Assembly (NCBI RefSeq): GCF_027484945.1
Contig: NZ_JAIXRZ010000013.1
Coordinates: 1 to 64,000, forward strand
Direction of reading: 5' to 3'
Length of the DNA: 64,000 nucleotides
From: Flavobacterium sp.
Lineage (GTDB): Bacteria > Bacteroidota > Bacteroidia > Flavobacteriales > Flavobacteriaceae
Position 1 is the stretch's first letter, and every line of letters begins with the position of its first letter. The notes under the pieces are model-generated. The model saw only the letters and a list, made by a program, of their open reading frames with translations. It was not told the DNA's origin and did not search any database. Made by a program: the position numbers and the translations under genes. This document shows positions 37,570-46,621 of the stretch, in pieces.

Positions 37570-38529
37570 TTGAGGACGTTTACCTTTGTTATTATCGATG
37601 ATAATCCAAATCATATAAAGAAAACTATGGCAACTGCTGTTAATTTTCCTTATATGAGATGTATGGGAAGTGCCGCCAACAGTGATGCGGGTGTCGATCT
37701 CGTATTGGAACATCGGCCGGATTTTATCTTTTTAGAAATTAATCCTAAAGAGCAAGAATCTGGCTTATCCTTGCATTTCATCAGTGAATTACATCGGTAT
37801 CTTTTACAACTTCCAAAAATAATTATCACTACGAAAGATCATACCCAATGCCCTACGGCATTCCAATTTGGCGTTTTTGATTATTTGATACATCCTATTG
37901 CTGTTAAAGATCTTCGTAAAACACTTTTGCGTTTTGAAAAAGAAATTGGTGAAGGGCAGCCTATAAAAAATCAAATGGTGCCTCCCAATAATATCAACCA
38001 TGTTGCTGATGAAGCCCGAACAATTTTAGTTGATAATGATTTGCCCGAACCGATTCAAGAACAAAGCGAACTACCTGAGGAAGCGACACATTTACCAGAA
38101 AATAATGAATTAGCCAAGACTCTGGATGAATCCGGTGAGAAAAACACAACGCAAAGAATTGCCGAGCAACCCATTCAAAAACCCTTGGTGATATGCGTAA
38201 AATCGTATGGGGATTACCGCTATATTGATGCTGCAGAAATTTGTTATTTGCAAGCCGATAACAATTCAACAGATATTCATTTAAATTCAGGAGAAATGAT
38301 AACAGCATTCAAAACTTTAAAACATTTTGAAAGTGTGCTTCAACATCCTTTTGTACGAATCCATAACAGTTATATTGTAAACTGCAATTACATTGCTCGT
38401 ATTCACACAGGGAATTCCGTTTGTCATATAAAAAATTCTTCGGTCAAAATTCCCTTTTCAAAATCGTACAAAGACAATATTGAGCAGATAATCAGTAGCA
38501 TAGCGTCTGGAAATTATTTGGAGATATAA
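37570..38529 (+). CDS. LytTR-type response regulator with atypical receiver (TTG start)
   Basis: N-terminal receiver FVIIDDNPNH; C-terminal LytTR (ICYLQADNNSTDIHLNSGE...HPFVRIHNSYIVN). Confidence 0.9.
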   Translation: MRTFTFVIIDDNPNHIKKTMATAVNFPYMRCMGSAANSDAGVDLVLEHRPDFIFLEINPKEQESGLSLHFISELHRYLLQLPKIIITTKDHTQCPTAFQFGVFDYLIHPIAVKDLRKTLLRFEKEIGEGQPIKNQMVPPNNINHVADEARTILVDNDLPEPIQEQSELPEEATHLPENNELAKTLDESGEKNTTQRIAEQPIQKPLVICVKSYGDYRYIDAAEICYLQADNNSTDIHLNSGEMITAFKTLKHFESVLQHPFVRIHNSYIVNCNYIARIHTGNSVCHIKNSSVKIPFSKSYKDNIEQIISSIASGNYLEI

Positions 38530-38564: not shown

Positions 38565-39227
38565 ATGGATATACAAATTTTAATTATTGATGACCACATG
38601 TCAATTATTGAAGGATATAAAACGATCCTTTCAAACAACCGTTTAAATGCAACCTTGCACATTACAGAGGCTCTTGATGCCCAGCAAGGATATGAAGCCC
38701 TAAGCAACCCAGCAAACAGTCAAAAGTTTGACGTAATTATTTTAGATTACACCTTGCCGCCTTATGAAGCGCTGGAAATTCAAAATGGGTATGATTTAGT
38801 GCAATTTGTTCGCCAATTTCAGCCTCAAGCTAAATTAATGATATTAACGTCACATTCTGAAGCTTTGATGTTGTATAAAGTCATTGTCGAATCGCGCGCG
38901 GAGGCGATTATGATTAAAAGTGATTTCACTTCAATGGAATTATTAGAAGCATTTGAGGCGGTTTACCAAGGCGGTAAATGTTATACGAAAACCGTTTTAG
39001 AATTGAAAAATCAATTACTGTCAAATTATCGCATATTTGACACGACCAATAGGGAGTTGATTAAGTTAATTGCTAAAGGATTAAAAACAAAAAACATCAT
39101 GGCCGAATTAAATCTATCTAAAAGCGCCATTGATAAACGAAAAGCTCAAATTCGCGATTTTTTTGAGATCGAAAAAGGGAATGATGAGGATATCATTCAA
39201 ATAGCCAAAAAGAAGGGATATATTTAA
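38565..39227 (+). CDS. NarL/LuxR-type response regulator
   Basis: ILIIDDHMSIIEGY; VIILDYTLP; C-terminal HTH. Confidence 0.9.
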   Translation: MDIQILIIDDHMSIIEGYKTILSNNRLNATLHITEALDAQQGYEALSNPANSQKFDVIILDYTLPPYEALEIQNGYDLVQFVRQFQPQAKLMILTSHSEALMLYKVIVESRAEAIMIKSDFTSMELLEAFEAVYQGGKCYTKTVLELKNQLLSNYRIFDTTNRELIKLIAKGLKTKNIMAELNLSKSAIDKRKAQIRDFFEIEKGNDEDIIQIAKKKGYI

Positions 39228-39312: not shown

Positions 39313-39756
39313 TTGAATAGTGTAAATTTGATGTTGAAATTTAAAACCTATAAATGCCATGATTACAAAGTTCATTATTTATTATTTGCCTTATTTGTTT
39401 ATTCTTTACCTGTAGCACAGGAAACAGCTAACATTGAATCCGGGAAAATTATGTTCCGGCTTACCGTTCAGTCTGATACATTACTTTTTTATTTTGATTC
39501 CAAGCCGATTTTTGAAAAAGCCTTGCAGGAGTTTGTTTTTAATTATACGGACTTTTCAATTGAAAATTTTAACAAAATCCAAAATGATCAGCTACCAATT
39601 ATTGTTATCGCGTTGTATATTCAAAACGATAAAAAGGATTGGGTTGATGGGCCTGATGAAGCATGGAGGTGTATTGGGTTAAAATCTTGCGAAATGGAAT
39701 GTATTGAACAAGAAATCAATGGGTTGTGGATGGATTGGAAGTGTAAAAAGCTTTGA
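39313..39756 (+). CDS. Predicted exported protein with Cys-rich C-terminus; start uncertain
   Basis: Hydrophobic LLFALFVYSLPVAQE; C-terminal WRCIGLKSCEMECIEQEINGLWMDWKCKKL. Confidence 0.55.
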   Translation: MNSVNLMLKFKTYKCHDYKVHYLLFALFVYSLPVAQETANIESGKIMFRLTVQSDTLLFYFDSKPIFEKALQEFVFNYTDFSIENFNKIQNDQLPIIVIALYIQNDKKDWVDGPDEAWRCIGLKSCEMECIEQEINGLWMDWKCKKL

Positions 39757-40015: not shown

Positions 40016-42016
40016 ATGAAAAAAGCACTTATTATAACTTCTTTAATTTTTATTCTTTTGTCATGCAATAATAACAATGTAGAGATAAATGATGTACAAA
40101 AAATAGAAAGTCAATTAAAAGAAATAGAAAAAGTCAACTCAAAAAGTAAAAAATATTTTATTTTGAATAAACTTTATTTTTCAGCATTAAAAATAGAAGT
40201 TGATAGTCAAAGAATTAGATTGTTAAATCAAATTTTCAAAGAATCAAATTTTAATAATAATTATAATTTATCTCGAAAAATCAATATTGCTTTTGCTAAG
40301 CAACCAGTTAAAAAAAACGTATTAGAACAAGCAAATTTATTTAAAAATAAAGCTTCATATTTCAGAATGATAGGGATGCTTGACTCTGCATATTATTTTT
40401 TTAATGAGTCAAAAAAAGATTATGATATTCTAAAAAAATATAATGAATATGGATCTTCATTGTATGGTTTAGCAGAATTAGAATCTAAATTTAATGACTA
40501 TAATAGTTCTGAAATCAAGTTAAAAAAAATAATTGAATTATCTAAACAGATTGACGACAAAAAATTATATTATATTTCATGTATTGCTCTTGGTAATAAT
40601 TATAAAAGTAGCGGCGATTACATTTCCTCTATTAAATATCACAAAATTGCTTATAAGTACTATATAGATAATAGGGATAAAATTCACATGAGTTATCTTC
40701 ATAGACAAGCTTTTTTAAATAATATTGGAAATGTTTACAAGGAGATGGGACTTTTCGATACCGCTAAAACATATTTTAAAAAAGCACTATCTAATAAAAA
40801 AGTTTTATTGGATAGTGACTTAGAATTATTTGGTTTGTTAAAATCAAATTTAGGATATTGTTATTTGCAAAATAATCAACTGGAAAAAGCATTAGAGAGT
40901 TTTGAAGAAGCAAAAAAAGCATTTTTTAAAGTAAATAATTTTGAAGAGTTATCTTATTTATTGATAAATGAATCAAAAATATTTTTAAAAAATGGAAATA
41001 CTTTAAAGTCAAATGAATTGTCAAAACAATCATTAAATTTTGCAAAAAAATCTAAAGCTAATAGATGTGAGTTATATATTTTAGAGAAGATAATTGAGCA
41101 GAGTGAAGATAATAAAAGTTTATTTTTTGACTATCTTAAATTAAAAAATAAAATAGAGAATAATGAAAATCTATCCAGAAATAGATTTTATAAAATTGAA
41201 CTTGAGACAAATCAAATTGAACAAGAAAAAAAGCAACTAGAAACCCAAAGAAATCAAGCAATATGGGTAGGGGTTATAATTTTTTTAATTTTAGCAATTA
41301 TATTTATTAATTACAGAAATCGTATCATAAAAAGTAAATATGAACTAAATAAGAAACATCAAAAAAGTAATGAGATTATTCAAGAATTAATTACCCAAAA
41401 TCAAGCTATAGAAGTTGAATCGCGCCAAAAAGAACAACGCCGAATAGCTATGGAAATCCATGATAATGTGTTAAATCAATTGGCTAGCGTGCGTTATAGA
41501 TTGTTTAAATTGAATTTTACGCAAGACCCTAATGCTTTAAATGATGCGCTCTACGGTATCGAAAACATTCGACAAGTAGAGGTTGAACTTCGGAATCTCA
41601 CACACAACCTCACGAACCAAAGTCAACTTGAACATATATCCTTAAAACAAATGATTGAACAACTCATAGTTGTTCATCATGAAATATACGGTCAAAATGT
41701 AATTTTTGAAATGGATACTTGGGATTGGGAAAAATTACCAGCGGAAACTAAATTATGTTTGGTGCGTATGATCCAAGAAGCATTGTTTAATACAGCCAAA
41801 CATGCTAAAGCGGATAATATTTTAATTGCCTTTACGCAAATTGACGGTCGAATAAAATTGAGGATTAAAGATGACGGAAAAGGATTTGAATTGCACTCCA
41901 TACAAAGAGGAATAGGATTGCAAAACATGGAGACAAGAGCAGCCCAAATTCAAGCCAAAATAGAAATCCTAACCAATCGAAATCAAGGAACCGAAATTAT
42001 AGTTGAATCCCATTGA
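40016..42016 (+). CDS. TPR-containing sensor histidine kinase (HisKA_3 type), lipoprotein N-terminus
   Basis: Lipobox ILLSC; TPR region; TM; RRIAMEIHDNVLNQLASVR; IKDDGKGF, GIGLQNM. Confidence 0.92.
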   Translation: MKKALIITSLIFILLSCNNNNVEINDVQKIESQLKEIEKVNSKSKKYFILNKLYFSALKIEVDSQRIRLLNQIFKESNFNNNYNLSRKINIAFAKQPVKKNVLEQANLFKNKASYFRMIGMLDSAYYFFNESKKDYDILKKYNEYGSSLYGLAELESKFNDYNSSEIKLKKIIELSKQIDDKKLYYISCIALGNNYKSSGDYISSIKYHKIAYKYYIDNRDKIHMSYLHRQAFLNNIGNVYKEMGLFDTAKTYFKKALSNKKVLLDSDLELFGLLKSNLGYCYLQNNQLEKALESFEEAKKAFFKVNNFEELSYLLINESKIFLKNGNTLKSNELSKQSLNFAKKSKANRCELYILEKIIEQSEDNKSLFFDYLKLKNKIENNENLSRNRFYKIELETNQIEQEKKQLETQRNQAIWVGVIIFLILAIIFINYRNRIIKSKYELNKKHQKSNEIIQELITQNQAIEVESRQKEQRRIAMEIHDNVLNQLASVRYRLFKLNFTQDPNALNDALYGIENIRQVEVELRNLTHNLTNQSQLEHISLKQMIEQLIVVHHEIYGQNVIFEMDTWDWEKLPAETKLCLVRMIQEALFNTAKHAKADNILIAFTQIDGRIKLRIKDDGKGFELHSIQRGIGLQNMETRAAQIQAKIEILTNRNQGTEIIVESH

Positions 42017-42266
42017 ATTAATTAAAAGCCTGAAATACAATTAGTTGAGTTAAAATAGTTCTTTTATTACGGTGAAATACAAAAAATAGCGCATTCACCA
42101 AAATTTGAGTATCATTTACTACCAAACGACATACATTCACATAAAACGCCCACGGAAATAGCAATTGACTTCCCGTGCTATACTAGTTTTACTCCGTTGA
42201 AATACCCTCAAATCAAAGGCAATTCAACCATTTAAAATTTAATAATAACTAGTAAAGCATACGATT

Positions 42267-42494
42267 ATGAGAAAGTCAGCAATTATTTCTGCATTATTTA
42301 CAATGATGTTAATATTAACATCCTTTAGTACTCCTTCTGAAATTGGTGGTAGAGGCCAAGTAGGAACAGGTAGTTATGAAATTGGTGGTAGAGGCCAAGT
42401 GGGAACAGGTAGTTATGAAATTGGCGGTAGAGGCCAAGTGGGTACAGGTAGTTTGAGTATTGGTGGCCGTGGTCAAGTGGGTACTGGGAGTTAA
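42267..42494 (+). CDS. Small exported peptide precursor with four 13-aa tandem repeats
   Basis: MRKSAIISALFTMMLILTSFSTPS signal-like start, then (E/S)IGGRGQVGTGS(Y/L) x4; synonymous differences between units. Confidence 0.75.
   Translation: MRKSAIISALFTMMLILTSFSTPSEIGGRGQVGTGSYEIGGRGQVGTGSYEIGGRGQVGTGSLSIGGRGQVGTGS
42339..42494 (+). repeat. Four 39-bp tandem units (42339, 42378, 42417, 42456)
   Basis: Exact 39-bp period, in frame, fills the ORF through its stop codon. Confidence 0.95.
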
Positions 42495-42519
42495 TATATT
42501 TAATAAAAAGTATTAAGAA

Positions 42520-42552
42520 AGTCAACATTTTATGTTGGCTTTTTTTATTTTT
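42520..42552 (+). terminator. Terminator AGTCAACAT-TTT-ATGTTGGCT-TTTTTTT after the peptide gene
   Basis: Inverted repeat + T-run. Confidence 0.8.
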
Positions 42553-42565
42553 GTAAAAACGATAA

Positions 42566-44608
42566 TTGAAAAACTTTATAAAAATATTTAACCTTGTGTT
42601 GCTTGTTTCTTTTTTTTCGTGTGAGAAAAAGGGAACAAGTAGTGATGATCAATTTTCTTCAAAAGATTTAAATTTTTTTAATAGTAAAATTTATAACAAA
42701 GATTTAAGTTTAACGGAAAGATTAAAATATAATGATAAGGCTATTAATAAATTATCAAAGGAATTAAAAAAAAAAGATTTAAAAGATTTTGATAGATATT
42801 TAAATAATTATTTTGAATTTCAAGATTGGGGGAAGTATAAAAGTGCGTCTTTAGTTTTATTAGAAAATTCATTAAAATATAATGACAGCTTATATTATGG
42901 TTTGTCTTTAAGATACATAGGTAATTATTATTATCAAAAAAATAATTTGGATAGCACATTTTATTTTTACACTAGATCTGAAAAGGTTTTCAATAAAATA
43001 AAAGATAAAAAAAATTACCCTATTATATTATTAAAAAAAGGAATTGTTCAGTTAGAGATTAATGATTTCTTAGGTGCAGATTTATCTTTAAGAAAAGCAT
43101 ATCAAATATTTAAGAATGGTAATGATTTTCAAAAATTATATGCAACTCTAAATACTTTGGGTTCAGTTTCTGCTGAATTGAAAGAATATAGTAGGGCAAT
43201 TTATTATTACAAACAAGCATTAAATGTAATAAAAAAAGGAAATTTAAATAATCTTGAACATCAAGAATCTAATTGTTTGAACAACTTAGGATTATTATAT
43301 AATGATTTAAAAGATTATAAAAAATCAATTTATTATTACAATCTTGCTTTAAAGAGTAGAAATTTAATTGATGATAATCCTAGATTGTATTCTATAATAA
43401 TTGATAATTTAGCATACTCAAAGCTAAAGTCAAATCAATTTTCAGGTTTACCAGATTTATTTTTTGAATCTTTAGATAAAAAAGATTCAATTGAAGATTT
43501 AAGTACAATTACAATTGTTAATATTCATTTGTCAGAATATTATGCTAGTATAAAAGACACAATAAATTCTGTATACTATTCTGATATTGCAATAAAAAAT
43601 GCTTTAAAGCTTAATACACCTTTATATAAAATTGCAGCTTATAAGCAGGCTTCAAATGTTAATAAAAAGAAAAGTTTAAATTATTCTGATTATTACATTA
43701 AATTAAATGATAGTCTACAAATGCTGGAGAGAAAATCAAAGGATCGTTTTGCTAGAATCGAGCTCGAAACCGATGAAATTCTTCAGCAAAAAGACTCACT
43801 CGAGCAAAAAAATCGAAGTATTCTCAATTATTTTATCGGAACCATTGCTATTGGGACTTTATTGTTTTTTATGCGCGCCCAACGGGCAAAAAGTCGTGAG
43901 CTTTTGTTACGTCAGGCACAGCAACGCGCGAATGAAGATATTTATAAGCTTATCATTTCGCAACAAAACAAACTTGAAGAAGGACGTGTACTTGAAAAAA
44001 ATCGGATTGCAAAAGAATTACATGACGGTGTTTTAGGTCGTTTATTTGGCCTACGCCTAAACCTTGATGGCCTCAATCACCGGGAAGATGAAGCAGCCAT
44101 TCAAGAACGAATTCATTGCCTAGAAGAATTAAAAGTTATTGAACAAGATTTACGAGAAATCTCTCATGAACTTTCCCGAGAAAAGTATGTATTGGTCAAT
44201 AATTTCGTTGCTATCGTCAATAATTTATTTGAAGAACAAGCCAAAATTAATCCAGCCAAACTTACTACGATTCTCGATGAGCAGGTCGATTGGGACATAT
44301 TAAGCAATACAACCAAGATCAATCTTTATAGAATTCTTCAAGAATGTTTACAAAACATCAACAAGTACGCCAAAGCAAATACTATAAAAGTTGAATTCCG
44401 TAAGGATAAAAAGGGTAATTTAGTGCTGAATATAACCGATGATGGCGAAGGATTTGAAGTTGATAAGAAAAGTAAGGGGATCGGCCTTAAAAATATTGTG
44501 ACCCGAACCCACGAAAGTGACGGAATTATCGAAATCAAATCTGCCCCAGGAAAAGGTACCCGTATCAGTATAACAGTTCCATTGGAGCAAAAAAACATCA
44601 AACATTAA
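42566..44608 (+). CDS. TPR-containing sensor histidine kinase (HisKA_3 type), lipoprotein N-terminus, TTG start
   Basis: Lipobox SFFSC; TPRs; NRIAKELHDGVLGRLFGLR; ITDDGEGF, GIGLKNI. Confidence 0.92.
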   Translation: MKNFIKIFNLVLLVSFFSCEKKGTSSDDQFSSKDLNFFNSKIYNKDLSLTERLKYNDKAINKLSKELKKKDLKDFDRYLNNYFEFQDWGKYKSASLVLLENSLKYNDSLYYGLSLRYIGNYYYQKNNLDSTFYFYTRSEKVFNKIKDKKNYPIILLKKGIVQLEINDFLGADLSLRKAYQIFKNGNDFQKLYATLNTLGSVSAELKEYSRAIYYYKQALNVIKKGNLNNLEHQESNCLNNLGLLYNDLKDYKKSIYYYNLALKSRNLIDDNPRLYSIIIDNLAYSKLKSNQFSGLPDLFFESLDKKDSIEDLSTITIVNIHLSEYYASIKDTINSVYYSDIAIKNALKLNTPLYKIAAYKQASNVNKKKSLNYSDYYIKLNDSLQMLERKSKDRFARIELETDEILQQKDSLEQKNRSILNYFIGTIAIGTLLFFMRAQRAKSRELLLRQAQQRANEDIYKLIISQQNKLEEGRVLEKNRIAKELHDGVLGRLFGLRLNLDGLNHREDEAAIQERIHCLEELKVIEQDLREISHELSREKYVLVNNFVAIVNNLFEEQAKINPAKLTTILDEQVDWDILSNTTKINLYRILQECLQNINKYAKANTIKVEFRKDKKGNLVLNITDDGEGFEVDKKSKGIGLKNIVTRTHESDGIIEIKSAPGKGTRISITVPLEQKNIKH

Positions 44609-44626
44609 CAAAAAATATATATTGCT

Positions 44627-45295
44627 ATGTCCCAAACAATCAATATTTTAATTGTCGATGATCACCAGTTTATCATCCAAGGCTATAAAAATGTAATTAA
44701 CCTATTTCCCGATAAATCTATAACCTTTAATTTTATTGAAGCTTCAGATTGCAAGTCTGGTTTTGAAACGATTAGCAATAGTCCACAACCCTTTGATGTT
44801 GCATTCCTAGATGTTAGTATGCCAGAATATCCTGAGAAAAACATTAATACAGGTGAAGATTTGGCCAAATTGATTAAGGAAACGATGCCAGAATGTAAAA
44901 TTGCCCTTCTAACTATGCATTCCGAAAGCTTGAAAGTCATGTCCATTATCGAAGAAATCAATCCCTTGGGATTAGTTATTAAAAATGATCTGACTTTTGA
45001 TAGTATGATTTTAGCCCTTACCTCTATACTTAATGGTGATACGTATTATAGTGATTCGGTGATTAAATTCTTAAATAACCAACAAAAAGAAAAAGTATAC
45101 ATCGATGTAATCGACCGCCAAATATTACACTATTTAAACAAAGGGGTCAATTACGATGATATCCCATTATACATCACGATCTCATCTAGTTCGGTAAAAA
45201 CACGAAAAGAAAACTTGAAAGACCTTCTCGGAATTTCAGGTAGTGACGATGCCTCCTTAGTATCCGTAGCGCGCGATCGCGGATTATTATTGTAA
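44627..45295 (+). CDS. NarL/LuxR-type response regulator, paralogous to 38565-39227
   Basis: ILIVDDHQFIIQGYKNVI; VAFLDVSMPE; C-terminal HTH. Confidence 0.9.
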   Translation: MSQTINILIVDDHQFIIQGYKNVINLFPDKSITFNFIEASDCKSGFETISNSPQPFDVAFLDVSMPEYPEKNINTGEDLAKLIKETMPECKIALLTMHSESLKVMSIIEEINPLGLVIKNDLTFDSMILALTSILNGDTYYSDSVIKFLNNQQKEKVYIDVIDRQILHYLNKGVNYDDIPLYITISSSSVKTRKENLKDLLGISGSDDASLVSVARDRGLLL

Positions 45296-46354: not shown

Positions 46355-46452
46355 GGTTTTATGTGTTTTAAGCGGTAAAGGTACATTAACCCTTATGGAA
46401 ATCCAATACTAAAACATCGGGTTTATATTTTTGAAATGGGTGTTGTGTATTC

Positions 46453-46526
46453 AGCCCCGATCGCAGCGGCATCCTCTGGTGATTCCTTGCCAAAGGGGTC
46501 GCCAGAGATACAGCTAAGAGCGGGAG
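46453..46526. repeat. Structured intergenic element AGCCCCGATCGCAGCGGCATCC-[hairpin]-GATACAGCTAAGAGCGGGA
   Basis: Central TCTGG(T)GA...TCGCCAGA hairpin with conserved-looking flanks; resembles a motif I recall from Flavobacterium intergenic regions. Confidence 0.5.
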
Positions 46527-46621
46527 GATACGCGTAAAAAAGGACAGGTGTCTGCTGCCCAAAAAAAAGTCCGGCAAAAACCGAACTTCATTTATAATTC
46601 AAAATTTAAAATAGTCAAAAT

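Follow-up and report, generated by a model that had tools for sequence, protein, structure and literature searches.

A likely peptide-pheromone locus with a TPR-domain histidine kinase in Flavobacterium

We describe a locus of Flavobacterium that we consider likely (probability roughly 0.78) to encode a peptide-pheromone system read by a tetratricopeptide-repeat (TPR) histidine kinase in Gram-negative Bacteroidota, a reading for which no expression, peptidomics or binding data are available. The locus lies in the window, by which we mean the whole stretch of 64,000 nucleotides that was analysed (Flavobacterium sp., assembly GCF_027484945.1, contig NZ_JAIXRZ010000013.1, positions 1 to 64,000 of the forward strand). 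Sequence comparison establishes a small precursor with a Sec-type leader, a repeated peptide core under selection, a kinase and a regulator fixed beside it, and covariation of the peptide with the sensor domain of that kinase.

Results

A repeated peptide core under purifying selection

The precursor gene (42267..42494, + strand) encodes 75 residues, with a Sec-type signal peptide at about residues 1-23 followed by four copies of a peptide unit, and is single-copy in its genome. The reading frame and translation given by the original prediction, which had been made without database searches, proved exact, while its description of four exact 13-residue repeats held only in part. The array (42339..42491, + strand) consists of four 39-bp units starting at 42339 (42339-42377, 42378-42416, 42417-42455 and 42456-42491, the last lacking its 13th codon), in which the exact part is an 11-residue core, IGGRGQVGTGS, invariant across all four units. 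The remainder is a variable linker of two junction residues (YE/LS), the sole place where amino acids change between units, and the end of the last core is also the C-terminus of the precursor. All 9 nucleotide sites that vary among the four cores do so synonymously, a pattern with a chance of about 8e-6 under random changes by a simple estimate that assumes independent changes.

Related precursors were sought first by searching 199 relatives with the precursor protein and second by running a profile against 400 Flavobacterium genomes. At a loose threshold (E 0.1), the profile found them in 281 of these 400 and in 249 of the 335 genomes of good quality, and about 160 of the listed places had E < 1e-14. 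The closest named match is Flavobacterium stagni, with further named matches in F. aquatile, F. fontis, F. xanthum and many others. Throughout the family the signal peptide is conserved (MKKs..LFSLMMVLTSFTTP) and the repeat unit varies between species, with 106 distinct units in 111 arrays. Each array carries 2-6 near-identical copies with a core of about 8-18 residues, and the last copy forms the exact C-terminal end of the protein in 94 of the 111.

The original prediction had read the unit differences as mostly synonymous, with amino-acid changes only at the junctions, and had inferred selection on IGGRGQVGTGS rather than a fresh duplication; it had proposed dN/dS between units as a check and frame-disrupted repeats at homologous loci as a refutation. 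These claims held. Computed on aligned repeat units without the non-repeat spacer, pN was 0.047 against a pS of 0.334 over the 111 arrays, pN was the smaller value in 110 of them, and no frame-disrupted repeats were found among the homologues at 120 loci. Together with the synonymy of the window's own cores, this shows purifying selection on the peptide core. The suggestion that the recurrent GG could be a processing signal found no support, as GG is confined to some peptide types and is absent in other genera. A double-glycine leader peptide was likewise rejected, the leader being of Sec type and GG not family-wide, and no double-glycine (C39) peptidase/ABC transporter was recognised among the ORFs neighbouring the precursor.

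Viral contigs held no relatives of the precursor, plasmid records gave no match to the locus and phage records matched nothing but the kinase domain, so that a mobile decoy is not indicated by the phage and plasmid collections searched. This Flavobacterium locus also occurs in two metagenome bins with the titles Candidatus Nitrotoga and Bifidobacterium breve, which are probably mislabelled or mixed.

A TPR histidine kinase fixed beside the precursor

Downstream of the precursor lies the putative receptor, HK2 (42566..44608, + strand; 680 residues), a histidine kinase with a lipobox cysteine (Cys19), a TPR superhelix (about 42656-43735, predicted to be periplasmic), a single transmembrane helix (about 43817-43876) and a HisKA_3/HATPase kinase region with His486 (Pfam). 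Both Cys19 and His486 are invariant in 70 homologues, and the location of the TPR domain outside the cytoplasm is inferred from this topology. The AlphaFold2 model of HK2 has a pLDDT of 84.6, exceeding 90 in the TPR part, and among its fold matches are TPR proteins that bind peptides, such as those in LGN complexes and Rap proteins with bound Phr-type peptides; RapF and RapH were also matched at the sequence level by profile.

This arrangement is not peculiar to the window. Among 120 loci fetched, a TPR histidine kinase is the next gene downstream of the precursor in all 119 that could be tested (those where the contig continues), a NarL-like response regulator follows the kinase in 115/120, and a LytTR regulator stands directly upstream of the precursor in 99/120. 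At one locus, recorded here as a side observation, the precursor is intact while the downstream TPR kinase is split into several fragments and followed by a short response regulator, for which decay or sequencing error are both possible.

In the window, HK2 is followed by RR2 (44627..45295, + strand), a NarL-like response regulator that keeps its phospho-acceptor aspartate. The LytTR receiver carries glutamate at that position in nearly all loci, and RR2 is therefore the likely partner and output of HK2. A second TPR histidine kinase, HK1 (40016..42016, + strand; Pfam), sits just upstream of the precursor, a place occupied by a second TPR kinase in 20/120 loci, and by gene order it is probably paired with a second NarL-like response regulator, RR1 (38565..39227, + strand; Pfam). 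Just upstream of HK1 is an ORF of 147 residues (39313-39756) with a possible signal sequence and no Pfam or NCBIfam match, which could be a partner of HK1. The window also holds a Flavo-1 sRNA at 46449-46531 (Rfam RF01705, 50.3 bits), which to our knowledge has no assigned function. In some Flavobacterium genomes there is a second TPR kinase, like those found in other genera, accompanied by a gene of its own for a small exported peptide, with cores ending ..PRKD or ..TRKD.

Peptide and sensor domain diversify together

The divergence of the peptide follows that of the TPR domain and not that of the signal peptide, response regulator or kinase domain. In a partial Mantel test over 105 loci, peptide distance correlated with TPR distance given kinase and response-regulator distance (r 0.53, permutation p 0.0005). 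In 26 independent, non-overlapping species pairs chosen for a kinase distance below 0.10, peptide and TPR divergence gave a Spearman coefficient of 0.91 (p 1.6e-10), against values near 0.1 for peptide and kinase (0.10), peptide and response regulator (0.13) and signal peptide and TPR domain (0.08).

One cluster of five loci illustrates the pattern, with mean distances of 0.08 for the kinase and 0.02 for the signal peptide but 0.58 for the TPR domain and 0.68 for the peptide; the response regulator is conserved as well, and the TPR domains and peptides are unrelated. The divergent DNA forms one unbroken tract, which begins at the repeats, takes in the intergenic region and stops where the TPR domain ends; the sequence on either side is conserved, and by analogy this is the pherotype pattern of agr. 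Since peptide and TPR domain share this contiguous variable tract, linkage may carry part of their correlation.

Two further observations point to specificity. The four TPR domains nearest to that of the window belong to four loci with peptides of the IGGRG.(V/L)GTG type, although three of these loci have kinase domains distant from the window's (0.37-0.44), while kinases nearer to the window's (0.22-0.26) go with different peptides and with TPR domains further from the window's. In addition, of the 40 TPR positions that best track the peptide, 21 fall in helix A and 4 in helix B (hypergeometric 1.7e-4), without any complex having been modelled or measured. Helix A lines the concave groove of TPR proteins. 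The sequences thus indicate, in the absence of binding data, that peptide and TPR sensor diversify together as species-specific matched pairs.

Probable separate control of peptide and receptor

Upstream of the precursor are promoter-proximal direct repeats (42094..42151, + strand; TTCACCAAAATTTG / TTTACTACCAAACG / ATTCACATAAAACG), about 21-22 bp apart. Direct repeats at this spacing are the layout of LytTR binding sites, as in sites of the AgrA type. They are kept upstream of precursors with or without an adjacent LytTR gene, the window being a case where it is not adjacent. In the 17 genomes where a stringent direct-repeat pattern matches, it is confined to precursor promoters; used to look for a regulon, the promoter pattern returned these promoters as sole matches and no other targets. 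The LytTR-domain regulator of the window (37570..38529, + strand; Pfam) is likely to bind the direct repeats and set peptide expression, DNA binding being inferred. Its receiver has glutamate instead of the phospho-acceptor aspartate in 97 of the 99 loci, which suggests that the regulator may act without phosphorylation.

The precursor was also predicted to have its own terminator, and this held. An intrinsic terminator (42515..42552, + strand; folding z = -4.5 for 42515-42545), 20-50 nt past the precursor stop, separates the precursor from HK2. Under a strict criterion, 78 of the 120 loci have a terminator between precursor and kinase, against 0.1 expected from Markov shuffles; a looser criterion was uninformative, being satisfied by 119/120 loci but also by 102/120 shuffles.

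The system beyond the genus

Outside Flavobacterium the precursor profile found nothing convincing. Orthologues of the kinase are present in 145 of the 237 Flavobacteriaceae genera sampled, and none of comparable strength was found in other families of the phylum. Just upstream of the kinase, 58 of 60 loci from other genera have a small ORF (48-135 residues) with a signal peptide, compared with 3 in the reverse-strand control and 2 in shuffles. Most of these ORFs carry a lipobox in the leader, so the peptide could be membrane-tethered in other genera. Most encode one C-terminal core, and the single-copy precursors are short and acidic. Outside the family, two TPR kinases were examined at this stringency, and neither had a recognisable upstream peptide.

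Repeat arrays have arisen separately in several other genera (loci L287; L321, L329, L330, L337 and L344). In one Flavobacterium genome without a repeat array, it is the whole small lipoprotein-like gene that stands in tandem copies upstream of the kinase, three of which end in an identical core, VETDPIIIPKKD. The C-terminal segment has thus been multiplied repeatedly and by different routes, and is therefore likely to be the active part and under selection for dosage.

Discussion

The original prediction compared the multi-copy layout to that of processed pheromone precursors, and this is supported by the synteny with a receptor, the hypervariability of the peptide, its covariation with the receptor and the amplification in separate lineages. 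Mechanistically, the precursor would be exported by Sec into the periplasm, where proteases would release copies of a linear peptide, here approximately the 11-residue IGGRGQVGTGS. The peptide would leave the cell and reach, in that cell or its neighbours, the periplasmic TPR groove of HK2, and peptide-bound HK2 would alter the phosphorylation of RR2 and the response of its target genes; whether by activation or inhibition is not settled. Tandem repeats would raise the yield of peptide per transcript, the terminator would hold the receptor below the level of the peptide, and the LytTR regulator, acting on the promoter direct repeats, would control precursor expression. Signal and sensor would co-diversify as pherotypes. 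Parts of this scheme have no candidate: neither a protease nor an outer-membrane exporter was identified, and the linkers have no obvious shared cleavage motif. The missing phospho-acceptor of the LytTR regulator also counts against a signalling loop, whose closure remains unexplained.

The proposed system resembles several known ones. As in the RRNPP(A) systems of Firmicutes (Rap-Phr, NprR-NprX, PlcR-PapR, PrgX), a small Sec-exported propeptide stands beside a TPR receptor, and the precursor meets the criterion of a Sec-exported propeptide of 10-100 residues adjoining the receptor gene (PMC10075063). By the same likeness the peptide is expected in the concave TPR groove, Rap-peptide structures being among the fold matches of HK2, although there are no binding data. 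RRNPP(A) receptors, however, are cytoplasmic proteins of 250-500 residues that require re-import of the peptide (PMC10075063), with TPRs joined to an HTH or phosphatase function. HK2 does not fit this description, having a predicted periplasmic TPR sensor on a lipidated histidine kinase of 680 residues in a Gram-negative member of the Bacteroidota.

With agr, ComCDE and ComQXPA the locus shares a hypervariable peptide, a co-varying sensor domain beside a conserved kinase half, a LytTR-type regulator nearby and an allele-like variable tract between conserved flanks. It differs in that no processing or export gene like AgrB, ComQ or ComAB was recognised, a negative that rests on the conserved neighbours of the precursor (kinase and response regulators only) and not on a full domain scan of the flanks. 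It differs further in the sensor, a TPR superhelix with one transmembrane helix instead of a polytopic membrane domain, in the multi-copy precursor of Flavobacterium and in its LytTR regulator without the phospho-acceptor aspartate. The system thus joins the two-component pheromone logic of agr and ComCDE with an RRNPP-like TPR receptor fold, yet fails one defining feature of each, because of the place and architecture of the receptor in the case of RRNPP and of the lack of a dedicated export gene in that of agr/ComCDE.

The yeast alpha-factor is also made from a multi-copy secreted pheromone precursor, with tandem copies of one peptide after a signal sequence, but the Flavobacterium linkers lack a KEX2-like cleavage motif, and here the organism is bacterial and the receptor a histidine kinase. 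Within the Bacteroidota, the best-studied TPR kinase is FimS of Porphyromonas gingivalis, a histidine kinase that, like HK2, has its TPR sensor in the periplasm and whose signal is unknown (PMC11053733); FimS is not known to have a peptide partner. Its profile (NCBIfam NF053520) gives HK1 a weak partial match of 24.6 bits against a cut-off of 600, and HK2 is not listed.

Among other explanations, the one most in need of an answer is that the peptide acts privately on the kinase, as a co-ligand or inhibitor in the periplasm, autocrine or tethered and reporting export or proteolysis, with no role between cells. The predicted periplasmic sensor, the lipoprotein signal of most other-genus precursors and the failure to find an outer-membrane exporter all speak for it. 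It offers no obvious reason for the species-specific hypervariability with exchange of alleles between conserved flanks, or for the amplification of arrays in separate lineages, both of which would be expected if signals are under diversifying selection for specificity. We therefore regard it as unlikely.

There is less still to favour a secreted bacteriocin or other antimicrobial, with the kinase sensing its production. Bacteriocin loci do hold small, exported, variable and repeated peptides beside two-component systems, and such a system adjoins the precursor in every locus. Against this, the conserved neighbours include no recognised gene for immunity or dedicated transport, the single-copy precursors of other genera are short and acidic, and the peptide covaries with the sensor domain, which together make this reading very improbable. 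That the repeats are neutral or structural and lie beside the kinase by chance, as a recent tandem duplication or a Gly-rich peptide of the surface or of adhesion, would suit their near-identity and glycine content, but is contradicted by purifying selection across the repeats, by the fixed synteny and by the covariation with the TPR domain, and can be all but dismissed.

The pheromone system thus remains our preferred reading. No prior description of such a system was found in the open-access literature searched; subscription journals and preprints were not covered, and an earlier description is not excluded. A quorum-sensing review from 2026 is silent on both Bacteroidetes and Flavobacterium.

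On balance, though by a modest margin, we favour a bolder reading, in which the locus represents an undescribed class, spread across the Flavobacteriaceae, of linear ribosomal peptides sensed outside the cytoplasm by TPR histidine kinases as species-specific pherotypes, and in which peptides may likewise be the ligands of related Bacteroidota TPR kinases whose signals are unknown, FimS among them. Peptide pheromones have been described mainly from Gram-positive bacteria. If the pheromone reading is true, an orphan class of sensor kinases would gain predicted ligands, more than 100 natural ligand-receptor pairs would become available for studies of specificity, and the receptor architecture, an extracytoplasmic TPR domain on a kinase, would unite the principles of RRNPP and agr. 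The Flavobacteriaceae, a large Gram-negative family of ecological importance, would then have a peptide language of their own.
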